Positions 34,782-42,443 of a DNA stretch of 46,946 nt are shown piece after piece. Every line of letters starts with the position of its first letter. The first letter of the stretch is position 1. The position numbers and the translations under genes were made by a program. Source of the DNA: Nocardioides sp. (GTDB taxonomy: Bacteria > Actinomycetota > Actinomycetes > Propionibacteriales > Nocardioidaceae); the NCBI GenBank assembly GCA_025965275.1, contig JAOPXG010000041.1, forward strand, positions 1 to 46,946. Direction: 5' to 3'. Below the pieces are notes generated by a model that was not told the DNA's origin, did no database searches, and saw only the letters and a program-made list of their open reading frames with translations.

Positions 34782-35564
34782 TCATGAGCCCTGCACCGGG
34801 AGCGTGACCGGCTTCGGGGGGCCGACCCCGGTCGACATCTGCACGGTGAAGGTGACCTCGGCGGCTCCGTCCGGGACCGGCGCGGGGAGCTGCAGCGTCT
34901 GGGTGGACTCCTCGGCGAGGTGGAACGGCATCGTGCCCAGCTTCGTGTCTCCCGCGGTGACGGCGATGGTGCCGGCGCAGCCCTTGGCACCGCTGCCACA
35001 GGTGAGCTGGACACCGGCGTTGCCGTGCGCATCTGGGGTGATGGTCGTGCTCGCGACGGCGAGCAGCGACGGAAAGACGACCCCGGTCGGCGTGTTGTCC
35101 CCGTTCGGGTCGAAGCAGCCGTCGAACTCGAAGACGGGGTTGGTGACCTCGCGCCCCTCGGCGTCGGTCATGGTCAGGAAGCCGGTGAGCTTGCTGGGGC
35201 TGCCGACGGTGTAGCAGTCGTTGCTGTGCACGTTGAGCTCGAACTTGCCGTAACCCTCGGGGGGCATGGGGACCTCGGGGTCGGTCCAGCTCATCAGGCA
35301 GTTCCAGTCGCCACCGGGTCCGACGTCGTTGTTCTCGGCGCCGGCCTTGTCGCACATGGCCTTGGCATGCAACGACGCGGGAGTGATGCGGCGGCCCTGG
35401 ATACGGGCCTGGTCAGCGTACTGGTTGGCGAAGTTGGTGGTGAGGGACCGCTCGAGCCGAGGCCGGGTGACGGTGCTGGTGTCGCCGCTGGTGGCGACGA
35501 CGGCCGAGCCGAGAGCGATGACTGCGACGAGCGCGGCGAGGATGACGAGGATGGTACGACGCAT
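34782..35564 (-). CDS. Secreted or membrane-anchored Cys-rich protein of unknown function
   Basis: 261 aa; N-terminal hydrophobic segment MRRTILVILAALVAVIALGSAVVA, then six cysteines (AMCDK, WNCLM, NDCYT, FDGCFD, LTCGSGAKGCAG). Directly follows the ABC permease gene. Confidence 0.75.
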   Translation of the reverse strand: MRRTILVILAALVAVIALGSAVVATSGDTSTVTRPRLERSLTTNFANQYADQARIQGRRITPASLHAKAMCDKAGAENNDVGPGGDWNCLMSWTDPEVPMPPEGYGKFELNVHSNDCYTVGSPSKLTGFLTMTDAEGREVTNPVFEFDGCFDPNGDNTPTGVVFPSLLAVASTTITPDAHGNAGVQLTCGSGAKGCAGTIAVTAGDTKLGTMPFHLAEESTQTLQLPAPVPDGAAEVTFTVQMSTGVGPPKPVTLPVQGS

Positions 35565-35569
35565 GGTGT

Positions 35570-36442
35570 TCAGCCTCCTGTGATGTCGCGTCGGCGGAGC
35601 ATGACGAAGGCCGCACCGAGGCAGACGGCACACCAGGCGGCGCTGGTGATCAGTCCTTCGGTGAGTGGCCCGGTGAACCGTGGGTCGGCGAAGAGGCCGT
35701 GCCAGGCCTCGAACGGCGTGGTGAGCAGGAACGGCCGGATCGCCTCGACGCCGCCGAGGGCGCCGACGAGCTGCATGACCATGCCGATCACGACCGGTGC
35801 CGCGATGCCGACGGCGGGGTTGCGCGACCAGACCGAGAGAAGGATCGCGAGGCACGTGAACCCGAGCATCGCCGGCAGCATGGTCGCCCAGGACGCGGCG
35901 ACGAGCCGTAGCGCCTCGGCGGCGGGGATGGTCTGCCCGGACAGCCCGGTCAGCGGCTGGTGCCCGACGATGAGCACGCTCGACACGATCGTCGACGTGG
36001 CGAGCACGGCAAGCACGATGACGGCGAACCCGCACGCCGTCAGGGTCTTCGCCCAGAACAGCTGGGCGCGGCTGGTGGAGCGGGTCAGGACGGTCTTCCA
36101 GGTGCCGTGCTGGTCCTCGCTGGCGAAGATGTCGCCGGCGACGACTGCTGTGAGCAGCGGCAGGACCCACTGGGCGGCGAATCCGAGGACGAGGAGCGAG
36201 AGGGCGAACCCGTTGTCGGTGGCGAAGCGGCCGAACAGGGTGTCCTTCGGCGGTCGGGACTGGCCCTGGATGACGACCACGACGATGACGGGGAGGACGA
36301 GGGCGCCGATGAGGACCGCCTTGGCGCGGTACTGAGCGCGGAGCTTGCGGATCTCCCAGCGCAGCGGCGCGAGTGCGCCCGGATGCCGTCGGGTGGCCGG
36401 GGACGTGTCGACCGGCGCTGCGGCCGTGGTGGTGGCGCTCAT
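35570..36442 (-). CDS. ABC-2 type transporter permease
   Basis: 290 aa; multiple TM helices; PLRWEIRKLRAQYR, GDIFASEDQHGTWKTVLTRSTSRAQLFWAK. Confidence 0.88.
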   Translation of the reverse strand: MSATTTAAAPVDTSPATRRHPGALAPLRWEIRKLRAQYRAKAVLIGALVLPVIVVVVIQGQSRPPKDTLFGRFATDNGFALSLLVLGFAAQWVLPLLTAVVAGDIFASEDQHGTWKTVLTRSTSRAQLFWAKTLTACGFAVIVLAVLATSTIVSSVLIVGHQPLTGLSGQTIPAAEALRLVAASWATMLPAMLGFTCLAILLSVWSRNPAVGIAAPVVIGMVMQLVGALGGVEAIRPFLLTTPFEAWHGLFADPRFTGPLTEGLITSAAWCAVCLGAAFVMLRRRDITGG

Positions 36443-37410
36443 CGGGCTGCCTCGGCCAGCTCGGCCAGCTCGGCCGGACGGTCGAGGGTCTGGTGGGTGG
36501 TGTCGTCGGTGAGCATGAAGAACAGCGCCTCCAGCGGTGTCTGGGTCTGGGTGAGCGTGAGCAGGTCGATGTTGTTGCGGACGAGCGCGGCGACGTACGC
36601 CGAGACGTCGGGCGTCGGCCCGGTCACGACGAGCGCGGCCTCGGGGTCGCGGGTGACCCGCAGTGCGGGGTGCTGCTCGGCCAGGGCGAGTGCGCGGGTG
36701 TCGTCGGTGGTGGCGAGCAGGTGTCCGGGGTCCGGGGCCATCGTGCGCAGCTTCGCGATGGTGCCGTGGAACGCGACGGTGCCGCGCTTCATGATGGTGA
36801 CGTTGTCGCAGATCTCCTCGACCTCGTCCATGTCGTGGGAGCTGAGGAGCACCGTCAGGCCGCTGTTGGCGAGCCGTTTCACCAGGGCACGCATGTCGCG
36901 GATGCCAGCAGGGTCGAGGCCGTTGGCGGGCTCGTCGAGGACCAGGAGTCGCGGCTCGCGTAGCAGGCTCGCCGCGACTCCGAGGCGCTGCCGCATGCCG
37001 TAGGAGTAGCCGCCGACCTTCTGGTCGGCGCGGTCGGTCATCTCGACCAGCTCGAGGAGTTCCTCGAGCAGACCGGGGCGGACGCCGCCATCGAGCAGGG
37101 CGAGACCTTCGAGGTTCTGCCGGCCGGTGAGGTAGGGGTAGAACCTCGGGCTCTCGATGAAGCCGCCGACCCCGTCGAGCACACCGACGCCGTCGGCGCC
37201 CCAGCTCTTGCCCAACACCTCGATGGTGCCGGAGTCGGGTCGGATCAGCCCGAACAGCATGCGCAGGAAGGTCGTCTTCCCGGCTCCGTTGGGGCCAAGG
37301 ACGCCGTAGACCTCGCCTGCTGCGACTCGGATGGTGATGTCGTCGACGGCGAGCACGGACCCGAAGGTCTTGGTCACGCCGGTCGCTTCGACTGCTAGTA
37401 GGTCGTTCAT
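36439..37410 (-). CDS. ABC transporter ATP-binding protein
   Basis: 324 aa from MNDLLAVEATGVTKTFG; GPNGAGKTTFLRMLFG, YSYGMRQRLGVAASLL, LLVLDEPANGLDP. Confidence 0.94.
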   Translation of the reverse strand: MNDLLAVEATGVTKTFGSVLAVDDITIRVAAGEVYGVLGPNGAGKTTFLRMLFGLIRPDSGTIEVLGKSWGADGVGVLDGVGGFIESPRFYPYLTGRQNLEGLALLDGGVRPGLLEELLELVEMTDRADQKVGGYSYGMRQRLGVAASLLREPRLLVLDEPANGLDPAGIRDMRALVKRLANSGLTVLLSSHDMDEVEEICDNVTIMKRGTVAFHGTIAKLRTMAPDPGHLLATTDDTRALALAEQHPALRVTRDPEAALVVTGPTPDVSAYVAALVRNNIDLLTLTQTQTPLEALFFMLTDDTTHQTLDRPAELAELAEAAR

Positions 37411-37432
37411 GATGCGCACCGTAGAAGGGGCA

Positions 37433-37548
37433 ACATGAAGAGACGATGAAGGCGCCTCCACGGGTGGTCGTGCTGCTCGGTACTCGCGTCGTCGGATCGG
37501 CGTACGGACGCCGTCAGCGCCCAAGGCGCCTTCATCGTCGCTTCATGT
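37433..37548. promoter_or_regulatory. 24-bp inverted repeat (one mismatch) around a divergent promoter pair
   Basis: ACATGAAGAGACGATGAAGGCGCC (37433-37456) versus GGCGCCTTCATCGTCGCTTCATGT (37525-37548); 23 of 24 positions complementary. Each arm holds CTTCAT-N5-CTTCAT direct repeats. Confidence 0.85.
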
Positions 37549-37608
37549 GGTCCTGCCTACCCTCAGCTCACCGATCGAATCGAGCCGGGGCAGACGAAGG
37601 AGGCAACA

Positions 37609-37995
37609 GTGACCGCCAGCGACATATCAGTGGTGTGGGGCCACGCCCAGGAGGACTGGTTCGTAGTGGTCAACCACTTCGCGCGCCTCACACCGTGGCT
37701 GCACACCCCGGCACGCCTGTTCGCCGAGTACGGAGTCGTCGCGTTCGCCGGGCTGCTCTTGCTCTCCTGGTTGCTCACCCGCCGCCACGGTGGCCCACGG
37801 CGCGCCACGGCAGCGCTCTGCGCGCCGCTGGGCGTCCTGGTCGCCGTCGGCGTCAACCAGTTCCTCGCGGCAGCAGTTGCTGAGCCACGGCCCTACCGTC
37901 TCGCTCGGCCCCTGTTCTCACGACTGGTGCTCCTCCTGGCACGGACTCCGGTGCGACCGTTCGTGACTGCCCAGCCCGCCTGTGCGTTCCGATGA
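37609..37995 (+). pseudogene. N-terminal half of PAP2 family phosphatase (truncated)
   Basis: MTASDISVVWGHAQEDWFVVVNHFARLTPWLHTPARLFAEYG...AVAEPRPY is PAP2-like, but the PSxH and downstream catalytic motifs are absent before the stop. Confidence 0.65.
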
Positions 37996-38699
37996 GCGCG
38001 CTGATGGAGCACCTGCTGTCCACGCCGGCATGGCTGGTGCTGCTGGTGGTCTTCGCCCTCCCGGCTCTGGAGTCGTCGGCCTTCCTCGGGTTCGTCTTTC
38101 CCGGGGAGACCGCCGTCCTGTTGGGTGGCGTCGCCGCGAGCCAGGGCCACCTGCCGCTGGGCGCGGTGATCAGCGCCGCGGTCGTTGGCGCGATCCTCGG
38201 CGACGGCGCCGGGTACTTGGTCGGGCGTCGATGGGGTCGCAGGATTCTCGACTCGACGCTGGGGCGCTTCACGAATGGCAACCATCTCGACCGAGCGGAG
38301 CGCGCGCTGCTCCGCGGGGGCGGGTGGGCAGTCTTCCTCGGGCGCTTCACCGCAGCGTTGCGGGTCATGATCCCCGGGCTGGCCGGGCTGTCCGAGATGC
38401 CGTACCGGCGGTTCCTCGTGGCCAACGTCGCGGGAGCCGTCGCCTGGGGTGCCCTGGTGGCGACCCTCGGGTACCTCGCCGGTAACAGCTGGCACACCGC
38501 TGCGCACTACGTCACCGGTGCAGGCGTGGGGCTGACGGTCGGCGTGGTGGCGCTGTACGTCGCCAGTCGCGTGACCCGTCGGCTCCTGCGCACTCGGCGC
38601 GCCAGGACCCAGACACATGGTCCGGGTGCGATACGCCGCGGGCTCACGGCGCTTGGCACAGTGTGGAGGCCGAGTCCTCCCGCGTCTCGGCCCGTGTGA
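37992..38699 (+). CDS. DedA/SNARE-associated family membrane protein
   Basis: 235 aa; ESSAFLGFVFPGETAVLLGGVAAS, GDGAGYLVGRRWGRRIL, FLGRFTAALRVMIPGLAG. Confidence 0.93.
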   Translation: MSALMEHLLSTPAWLVLLVVFALPALESSAFLGFVFPGETAVLLGGVAASQGHLPLGAVISAAVVGAILGDGAGYLVGRRWGRRILDSTLGRFTNGNHLDRAERALLRGGGWAVFLGRFTAALRVMIPGLAGLSEMPYRRFLVANVAGAVAWGALVATLGYLAGNSWHTAAHYVTGAGVGLTVGVVALYVASRVTRRLLRTRRARTQTHGPGAIRRGLTALGTVWRPSPPASRPV

Positions 38700-40321
38700 C
38701 GACGCCGATGGAGACCGTCGCGGTGGTCGGCACGGATGCTCGAGAGGTTCTCGAGCACCTGCCGCCGACCCCGGACCTGAGACCGCCCAAGACCCGACGT
38801 TGGGATGTCCCGAGCGTGGTCGGCCTCGGTGTCGCGGTGGTACTCGCGGTGGCGGCCTGGGTGCCCTTCGTGGACGCCCCGCTCTCGCCGGACGAGGGCG
38901 GGTTCCTTCTGCTCGCCCAACACTGGGGCCCCGGGTCCTCGCTGTACGGGTCGTACTGGGTCGATCGTCCGCCGCTGCTCCTGGGGCTGTTCTCGCTGGC
39001 GGCACATCTGGGACCGGTCGGACACTCGACCGCAGGTCTCACCGCGCCCGCGGTCAAGATGTCGGGAGCCCGTCGCAAGCGGACTGGCGGTCCTGCTGGC
39101 CGGGGTCGTCGCGCAGTCCGTCGCATCCGGCCGACGTTGGACGCAGGGTGCCTCGATCCTCGCCGTACTTGCCCTGCTGAGCACCCCGATGCTCGGGATG
39201 CCCGAGACGAACGGCGAACTCCTTGCGCTTCCCTTCGTGCTCGTCGCAGTCGTGTGCCTGCACGCGTCGACCAGGCAAACCTGGAGTCGTCGCGCCCTGC
39301 TCCTCACGGCTGGTGCCGGGGTCGCGGCGACGTGCGCCGTCCTGGTCAAGCAGAACGTCGCCGACGTCTTCGTCCTCGCAGTCGTGCTGCTCGTCGCTTC
39401 CCGTGGACGCCTGCCACACCTACGGCAGCGCGCCGGAGCGTTCCTGGGCGCCGTGGGTGTCACGCTGGCCGCAGCACTGGTCGCCGCCGACCTGCGAGGT
39501 ACCACTCCGGTCGAGCTCTTCGACGCCGTCGTGGTCTTCCGCATCCGCAGCTCAGAGGTCATCGACGCCTCAGCGTCCCCGGCGACCTCCGAGCGAATGG
39601 CGCACCTGGCCCTCGCCTCGCTCACCAGCGGTGTTCCGTGCTCCTCATCGTCGCGGCCGCAGGTGCCGTATGCGCCCTACGCACCCACCGGACTCGTCCG
39701 TCGCTGAACCACACCCGTGCACCCGCAGACCTCACAACGGCCTGGCTGTGGGGCGCGCTGGGGATGACGGTGTGGGAGCTGTGCGGAGTCGCGCTCGGTG
39801 GCAGCTACTGGCTCCACTACCTGACCGGCCTCATCCCCGGCATCGTCCTTCTGCTGGCCCTCCTTCCGCCGACACGGCGGTGGCGGAGTGCGGTCGGCGT
39901 CTGTATCTCCTACGTCGTGATGGCGACGGCCGTGGTGTGGATCCACAACGCCACGTCTCCCGTGACCGCCTCCGAGGACGCTCAGGTCGTCGCATATCTC
40001 CGTGGGCATGCTGCGCCGGAGGACGGGGTGGTCGTCGCCTTCGGGCACGCCGACATCGTCGCGGGAAGCGGTCTGGCCAGCCCGTATGAGTACCTGTGGA
40101 GCCTTCCGGTCCGCGTTCGCGACCCACGACTCGAGGAGCTCAGCGCCGTCATGGACAGCGCCGCGGCCCCGCGGTGGATGGTCGTCGCCGGCGAGAGCGT
40201 CGACTCTTGGGGGCTTGACGCAACCAGGACGCAGCGACTCCTCGACCGGGACTACGTTGAACGCGCAACGGATGGCGACTGGCACATCTGGCAGCACCGA
40301 ACGAGAGGAGCCGACCGATGA
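38696..40321 (+). pseudogene. GT39/PMT-like membrane glycosyltransferase with two frame changes
   Basis: Frame A SPDEGGFLLLAQHWGPGSSLYGSYWVDRPPLLLGLFSLA; frame B LLAGVVAQSVA...LGMPETNGELLALPFVL...LVKQNVADVF; back to frame A LLIVAAAGAVCALRTHRT...GGSYWLHYLTGLIPG. Changes near 39060 and 39635. Confidence 0.8.
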
Positions 40322-41001
40322 GAGTCCTGGTCGCCGAGGACGAGGTTCGGCTGGCCGACCTGCTCGCACAGTCGCTCACCGAGGCAGGCTGGCGCGCCGA
40401 CGTGGTCCATGACGGCCGCTCCGCCTACGACCTGCTGCTCGTCGACGCCGGGTACGACGTCGCGCTGCTCGACTGGATGCTCCCCGGGATGGATGGCGTG
40501 AGCGTCGCACGACGGCTGCGTGGATTCGGGGTGACGACACCCATCTTGATGCTCACCGCCCGTGGCGATGTCCGCGACCGCATCGACGGACTCGACGCCG
40601 GCGCCGACGACTACCTGGCGAAACCGTTCGACCTCGACGAGCTCCTGGCGCGGCTTCGTGCGCTCTTCCGCCGCAGCAGCCAGGCCGGCGAGGGCCCGGT
40701 TCAGGTCGGAGACCTGGTCGTGGACCCTGTCTCCCGGCGCGTGTTCCGGCGCGGGGTCGAGATCACACTCTCGGCGCGCGAGTTCGACATTCTGCACCTG
40801 CTGGCCGTGCATGCCGGAAGGGTCGTCACCCGGCTCGCCATCCTCGACGAGGTGTGGGACGGAGAGACCGACATCAGGAGCAACGTGATCGACGTCCACC
40901 TCGCCGCGATCCGCGCCAAGATCGACAAGCCCTACGGCACCGACACCATCACCACCATGCGCGGGGTCGGCTACCGGCTCGAGACGACGGTGGGCGGCTG
41001 A
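40318..41001 (+). CDS. OmpR/PhoB family response regulator
   Basis: 227 aa; MRVLVAEDEVRLADLL, LLDWMLPGMDG, LAKPFDLDEL, C-terminal wHTH VIDVHLAAIRAKID...TMRGVGYRLE. Confidence 0.96.
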   Translation: MRVLVAEDEVRLADLLAQSLTEAGWRADVVHDGRSAYDLLLVDAGYDVALLDWMLPGMDGVSVARRLRGFGVTTPILMLTARGDVRDRIDGLDAGADDYLAKPFDLDELLARLRALFRRSSQAGEGPVQVGDLVVDPVSRRVFRRGVEITLSAREFDILHLLAVHAGRVVTRLAILDEVWDGETDIRSNVIDVHLAAIRAKIDKPYGTDTITTMRGVGYRLETTVGG

Positions 41002-42443
41002 TGGCGTCGCTGCGAGGCCGGGTCTCGCGGCTGCCGTTGCGGATCCGCCTCGTTGCAGGGTTCTCCCTGGCCACATTCGTGGTCCTGCTCGCGGCAGGAG
41101 TGTTCGTCTACTGGCGTATCGACTACGCGCTCGACCGAGGTCTGGACACAGAGCTCAAGCAGGCCAGCCGAACACTCGACCCCCTCATCGGAGCCGACGG
41201 CACGGTTACCGACCGATCTGCTGCTGAGGCGACCGGGGTGGCCTGGCAGGTGCTCACACCGGACGGGACCGTGCTCGACGACGGCGGACCGGCCGGCACG
41301 CGCCCACTGGTCAGCTCGCGTCAACTGAGCCGGGTCGGGGAGACGGCGAAGACGTACAACGTCGGCGCATTCCTGCCGAGCTCCAACGAGCCGTACCGTG
41401 TCCGGGTCGAGCGGTCCACCACGTCCCCTGAGCACTACTTGCTCGTCGGCGTACGCCGTGACCATCGCGACGAGGCTCTCCGCGAGCTCCTGCTCCAGCT
41501 CAGCCTTGCAGGGCTTGGAGCTCTTGTCGTCACCGCCTTCGTCGGCGAACGACTCGCGCGGGCAGCGCTGAAGCCAGTCGAGCAGTACCGACGGCGCGCC
41601 TCCGCGATCGCCGCAGGCAGGGCAGACCTTCGCCTGGACGTCCCCGCGCAACGCGACGACGAGATCACCCGGCTGGGGCACACCTTCAACGACATGCTCT
41701 CCTCGCTGGAGGAGGCGCTCGACCGGGAGCGACAGTTCGTCAGCGACGCCAGCCACGAGCTCCGCACCCCCGTCACACTGCTGACCAGCCGTATCCAGCT
41801 CGCCCTGCGGCGCCCTCGCACCCAAGCCGACCACGAACGCATCCTGTCCGAGCTCAAGGTCGACCTCGACCGGCTCGCGCTCCTCGCCGACCAGCTCCTC
41901 CAGGTCGGGCGAGTCGACTCCGGAAGCGGCGCCGGGTCGAGCGACATGGTGACCGTTGTCGGAAGAACGATCAGTCAACGTCGCCTGGCAGACCCCCTGC
42001 GCGCCGGTGACGTCGAGGTGAGCGTCCCGTCCGAACCTCTGCCGGTCGGTGTCGTCGACTTCGAGCTCGAGCGGATCCTGACCAACCTTCTCGACAACGC
42101 CGCAACTCACGGTGCGCCCCCGTTCCGGGTCACCGTCGACGAACCCAACCCCGCATGGGCACGCCTGGCGGTCTCAGACGGCGGCGCGGGCATGCCGCAC
42201 AACCTGCTCACCACAGCAACGCAGCGTTTCGCGCGCGCCGACGAAGCCCGAGCTCGCCCCGGAACAGGACTGGGACTCTCACTGGTCGAGGCCCTGGTCA
42301 GCCACGCCTCCGGCGAGCTTCGGCTCTGCTACCAGGGCCAGCACGTCTCACACGGCCGACCGGCGCCAGTGGAATGCGCGCACGGCCCGGAGATGACGGT
42401 GACCGTGCTCCTCCCGACCAGGCAGGGCCATGTCCCGGCCTAG
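41001..42443 (+). CDS. Sensor histidine kinase
   Basis: 481 aa; TM segments, HAMP-like region, FVSDASHELRTPVTLL, LTNLLDNAATHG, GTGLGLSLVEALV. Overlaps the response regulator stop (ATGA). Confidence 0.95.
   Translation: MASLRGRVSRLPLRIRLVAGFSLATFVVLLAAGVFVYWRIDYALDRGLDTELKQASRTLDPLIGADGTVTDRSAAEATGVAWQVLTPDGTVLDDGGPAGTRPLVSSRQLSRVGETAKTYNVGAFLPSSNEPYRVRVERSTTSPEHYLLVGVRRDHRDEALRELLLQLSLAGLGALVVTAFVGERLARAALKPVEQYRRRASAIAAGRADLRLDVPAQRDDEITRLGHTFNDMLSSLEEALDRERQFVSDASHELRTPVTLLTSRIQLALRRPRTQADHERILSELKVDLDRLALLADQLLQVGRVDSGSGAGSSDMVTVVGRTISQRRLADPLRAGDVEVSVPSEPLPVGVVDFELERILTNLLDNAATHGAPPFRVTVDEPNPAWARLAVSDGGAGMPHNLLTTATQRFARADEARARPGTGLGLSLVEALVSHASGELRLCYQGQHVSHGRPAPVECAHGPEMTVTVLLPTRQGHVPA

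Follow-up and report, generated by a model that had tools for sequence, protein, structure and literature searches.

A conserved direct-repeat operator in putative divergent, activator-dependent promoters beside a two-component system in Nocardioides

What does a nearly perfect inverted repeat do between two transcription units that face apart? We considered this question in a stretch of 46,946 nucleotides from Nocardioides sp., hereafter the window. A repeat search and a count of complementary positions place two 24-bp arms at 37433-37456 and 37525-37548, complementary at 23 of 24 positions, confirming the inverted repeat described in an earlier note on this DNA. The best arm complementarity among 60 shuffles of the intergenic region was 17 of 24, and no second inverted repeat of 23 of 24 (within 120 bp) was found elsewhere in the window. 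The arm pair extends to 37 nt at 84% in the repeat search. Read toward its own gene, each arm is CTTCATCGTC(T/G)CTTCATGT, with CTTCAT-N5-CTTCAT in both. Exact matches define a minus-arm operator, CTTCATCGTCTCTTCAT (37435-37451, minus strand; two half-sites at an 11-bp period), and a plus-arm operator, CTTCATCGTCGCTTCAT (37530-37546, plus strand). From CTTCATGT it is 9 nt to a -10-like box on both sides, or 11 nt when counted from the second CTTCAT. These boxes are TACGGT on the minus strand (37418-37423) for the ABC promoter and TACCCT on the plus strand (37558-37563) for the rightward promoter, again as the earlier note had them. No sigma-70 -35/-10 pair was found in the intergenic interval.

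The leftward genes, all on the minus strand, encode an ABC transporter ATPase (36439-37410; PF00005, TIGR01188/TIGR03740), an ABC-2 type permease (35570-36442; PF12730) and a probable exported protein of unknown family (34782-35564). The nearest models for the ATPase are drrA and gallidermin-type immunity, both under cut-off. The exported protein has no match in a Pfam search; its homologues occur in ABC loci, where the gene comes after the permease in operons led by the same box. On the plus strand, a PAP2-like gene (37609-37995) starts with a GTG that lies 45 nt past the -10 box and is preceded by the Shine-Dalgarno sequence AGGAGG (37598-37603). It is followed by genes for a UptA-like DedA/VTT protein (37992-38699; PF09335, NCBIfam under cut-off), a GT-C glycosyltransferase (38663-40321), an OmpR/PhoB-family response regulator (40318-41001) and its cognate histidine kinase with HAMP, HisKA and HATPase domains (41001-42443). 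The regulator scores above the curated cut-offs for PF00072 (91.4 bits) and PF00486 (79.8 bits). A rightward unit of PAP2, DedA, regulator and kinase had been proposed earlier; those genes do belong to it, but the glycosyltransferase gene was left out.

Comparison with L264 and L240, the closest relatives, shows that part of this right unit is broken or misassembled. The PAP2-like frame encodes 128 residues here and 209 in relatives, with an internal stretch missing, and the glycosyltransferase gene is split over frames by two frame changes in this assembly. The plus-strand -10 box, TACCCT, also deviates from the family consensus TASSGT; both relatives have TACGGT. With these three defects, the right unit may be in decay, or the assembly may be wrong here.

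A genome scan for the box was one of the earlier suggestions. CTTCATN5CTTCAT has exactly two matches in the 4.38-Mb assembly (416 contigs), both in this intergenic region, and the reversed control has none; no additional strict site was found in this genome, whose assembly is 87% complete. When the -10 box is included, the composite pattern CTTCAYN5YTTCAY-N10/11-TANSGT occurs 61 times among 220 Nocardioides genomes, spread over 33 of them. The reversed pattern gives none. Beyond the family, a composite match is present in only two genomes of the sampled order. A set of 64 sites was collected locally from the genus and a small number of related genera in its family. In this set the operator-to--10 gap is 11 nt at 50 sites and 10 nt at 14; the pattern itself excludes other gaps, and earlier unconstrained scans agree with this split. 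The -10 box is TACGGT, TAGCGT or TACCGT at 63 of the 64, TACGGT being the commonest (28 of 64). A homologous box precedes ABC orthologues at the equivalent position in 15 other loci, and the plus-arm box also stands before PAP2 in L264 and L240. The conservation that the earlier note proposed to check is borne out: box, spacing and -10 recur around regulator orthologues. A chance repeat with no regulatory role would have to account for shuffles that fall well short of the observed pairing, for 61 sites against no controls across the genus and for conservation of box, spacing and -10 between species; we give it almost no weight. A box this specific allows the regulon to be listed for each genome in turn. 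No report of it was found in the collection of papers searched.

The mirror-image arrangement itself fares differently. It had been described as one mirror-image divergent promoter, but the closest relatives, L264 and L240, have the plus arm only, and the back-to-back pairs found elsewhere (L186, L187, L188 and L249) have other gaps. A single rigid mirror device was rejected in view of these single arms and differently spaced pairs. Judged by the same comparisons, each arm is an independent putative promoter, the two facing apart. The ABC block of the window is closest to genome G244 (87-89%) and the regulator to G267 and G323 (88%). Since these parts have different closest relatives, the window arrangement seems to have arisen when two conserved promoters came to lie side by side.

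The inverted repeat could still be functional in its own right, as a cruciform, a bidirectional terminator or a pair of arms bridged by a looped tetramer. In its favor, the complementarity of 23 of 24 takes in a flank that is not conserved in relatives. The loop between the arms is 68 nt, though, no terminator signature was found in the interval, and relatives with one arm or with other gaps are hard to reconcile with it. We therefore consider such a role very unlikely; a terminator or cruciform in particular was rejected for its missing signature and long loop. The flank in question is AGGCGC, upstream in both arms (37452-37457 and 37524-37529); relatives with a single arm do not conserve it there. 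Gene conversion or chance may account for its presence in both arms.

If each arm is a promoter, which protein would bind it? The earlier note named the response regulator at 40318-41001 as the binder of both arms, and comparative data strongly support this assignment. An orthologue of the regulator is present in 32 of the 33 site-bearing genomes versus 51 of the 220 overall; in the remaining one, G270, the regulator gene runs off the contig edge. Over the 220 genomes, site and regulator co-occur with a Fisher p of about 4e-24, a value that is overstated because shared ancestry is left uncorrected. The regulator gene lies within 6 kb of 36 of the 61 sites. Site-bearing orthologues hardly vary in the recognition helix, SNVIDV[HY]; paralogues at roughly 50% identity have a different helix there. 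Some genomes with an orthologue have no box at the regulator locus (G136 and G229, for example). Distant regulators at roughly 40-50% identity have no composite box nearby, except L046 of Nocardioides guangzhouensis. In several species a site stands directly before the regulator gene or before an operon that ends in regulator and kinase, and so self-activation of the regulator looks like a recurrent trait.

Taken together, the region is very probably a divergent pair of activator-dependent promoters, each with an operator for this regulator. Two protomers would bind head-to-tail on CTTCAT-N5-CTTCAT, with both, 11 bp apart, facing the same side of the helix. The operator would cover the position of the -35 hexamer, ending 10-11 nt from a TANNNT -10. 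Because of this placement, the phosphorylated regulator would be expected to recruit RNA polymerase and to substitute for the -35 element. Class II activation is implied by a box at the -35 position and the lack of a visible -35 hexamer, and the layout of such promoters, a direct-repeat operator at a fixed -10 distance without that hexamer, is what we find. The minus arm would launch a leaderless ABC-exporter transcript and the plus arm a PAP2-DedA-GT-RR-HK transcript. As the latter includes the regulator and kinase genes, the system would amplify itself.

We infer that binding leads to activation, not repression, at both arms. A repressor is conceivable, as the box is inside the promoter and a bound protein could block polymerase. 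Yet a promoter with no -35 hexamer, and an operator held at 10-11 nt from the -10 over 64 sites, are what contact by an activator predicts. PhoB- and PmrA-type regulators with such a promoter layout activate. We regard repression as unlikely and continue with activation.

The earlier note also suggested a near-leaderless ABC transcript, on the basis of the 7 nt from the end of TACGGT to the ATG in the window. This spacing is a conserved rule: an ATG or GTG lies exactly 6 or 7 nt past the -10 box at 47 of the 64 sites, versus about 5% expected. Leaderless mRNA is thus predicted to be usual for these sites. Transcripts from PAP2 promoters, in the window and elsewhere, would instead retain a leader, of roughly 30-47 nt. 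TA-led leaderless genes of Actinobacteria carry TANNNT about 12 bp upstream of the start codon (PMC3160421). The minus arm, with TACGGT, 7 nt and then ATG, agrees with this layout, as do the 47 sites just mentioned, when TANNNT is expected some 10-12 bp ahead of the start. What sets it apart from plain leaderless TA-led genes is the activator box, which stands where a -35 would be.

The predicted targets may tell us what the regulator does. The genes that start at the sites form a small set and encode ABC ATPases (16), homologues of the window glycosyltransferase (13), DedA proteins (10), PAP2 proteins (5) and proteins with LPG-synthase-TM and GT4 domains (5), followed by two each for the regulator, a polyprenyl-phosphate-type GT2, a DMT transporter and DUF4956; ORFs were picked mechanically and a few are in the wrong frame. 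The DUF4956 membrane proteins (L188:8230-8874 and L269:3273-3941) have a composite box in front and a regulator gene adjacent. Sites unlinked to the regulator lead the same kinds of genes as linked ones, namely ABC exporter, ArnT-fold glycosyltransferase, DedA and PAP2 (for example, G192 contig 14, G227 contigs 7 and 8, G207 and G011 contig 30). The glycosyltransferase family, L203:7510-9000 with ten homologues in alignment A1, has no sequence match in Pfam, NCBIfam or PDB, and its profile has none against PDB and Pfam. The predicted fold of the intact homologue L203 (mean pLDDT 70) matches GT-C enzymes, the top match being ArnT bound to undecaprenyl phosphate (E 1.1e-4). PAP2 and DedA match undecaprenyl-diphosphatase and UptA models below cut-off. 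What the targets share is a link to the polyprenyl-phosphate carrier and to the envelope. They suggest a testable function in remodelling or recycling of the lipid carrier, plus export. Our guess at the inducing signal, drawn from these targets, is disturbance of the envelope or of the polyprenyl-phosphate carrier, for instance by membrane-active peptides.

The targets and the box both recall PmrA. PmrA binds hexamers at 5-bp spacing, and N188 and H193 are reported to contact DNA (PMC3973317). Like the PmrA/BasR box of enterobacteria, CTTAAG-N5-NTTAAT (CTTAAT-N5-CCTAAG in K. pneumoniae), the window box has head-to-tail hexamers with a 5-bp spacer and an 11-bp period. The helix of the window regulator keeps Asn and His at the positions of N188 and H193, and an ArnT-fold glycosyltransferase and DedA are among the targets. 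However, the half-site is CTTCAT, not CTTAAT or a CTTAAG-type hexamer, and His195 and Asn196 of PmrA are Ala in the window regulator. Its score against the PmrA equivalog PRK10643 is 173.6 bits, below the cut-off of 330. The regulon also differs from that of PmrA in its setting, a different phylum without lipid A, in its ABC exporter and PAP2 targets and in its leaderless starts. We tentatively entertain, and would not yet bet on, a dedicated two-component regulon in Nocardioides and its relatives that would be the counterpart of PmrAB/Arn in Gram-negatives. It would combine a PmrA-like hexamer box with polyprenyl-phosphate-linked sugar transfer (ArnT-fold GT-C, GT2 and DMT), carrier recycling (PAP2 and DedA) and a peptide-type ABC exporter, on largely leaderless transcripts, against membrane-active antimicrobials. 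In any case, sequence alone has here given a previously uncharacterised two-component system, one that extends through a large soil genus, a defined operator, a promoter layout and a regulon. The promoter pair in the window is compact, natural and apparently -35-free with leaderless mRNA, and may be useful for studies of OmpR-type activators and the actinobacterial polymerase.

Could a different OmpR-family regulator, such as a CopR-type copper regulator, bind the boxes, with the linked regulator being incidental? The CopR site of C. glutamicum, TGAAGATTTnnTGAAGATTT, has a CTTCA-N6-CTTCA core, and one intergenic region there serves divergent operons (PMC3140484). The same core occurs here with equal period on the complementary strand, and the target operons are likewise divergent. 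A copper-ATPase locus in relatives also has a CopR-like box, although without the composite promoter. TIGR01387 (CztR/SilR/CopR) is the best-scoring NCBIfam model for the window regulator. Its score, 215.9 bits, is below the cut-off of 279.2. In contrast to CopR, where one box serves two operons that carry copper genes, there are two boxes here, and no metal genes were recognised downstream of the 64 sites. With a score short of the cut-off in each family, and with no metal gene recognised among its targets, the window regulator is formally neither PmrA nor a member of the heavy-metal (CopR-type) family. Moreover, composite sites track the linked regulator over genomes and cluster beside its gene, and its recognition helix is common to the site-bearing genomes. 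Another regulator is therefore quite improbable, and the linked regulator remains our candidate for both arms. Copper regulation as such was rejected because no metal genes were recognised downstream and because the CopR-like box of the copper locus is a distinct variant that lacks the composite promoter.

This CopR-like element, CTTCATCGAACCTTCAT, whose reverse complement ATGAAGGTTCGATGAAG is very like the C. glutamicum CopR site, recurs at L272:4027 and in L115, L122, L123, L127, L131 and L137. It adjoins an ATACCCC..GGGGTAT palindrome that resembles a CsoR operator; the next gene in L272 encodes a heavy-metal P-type ATPase. CTTCATCGAACCTTCAT is probably a copper-responsive relative of the window box.
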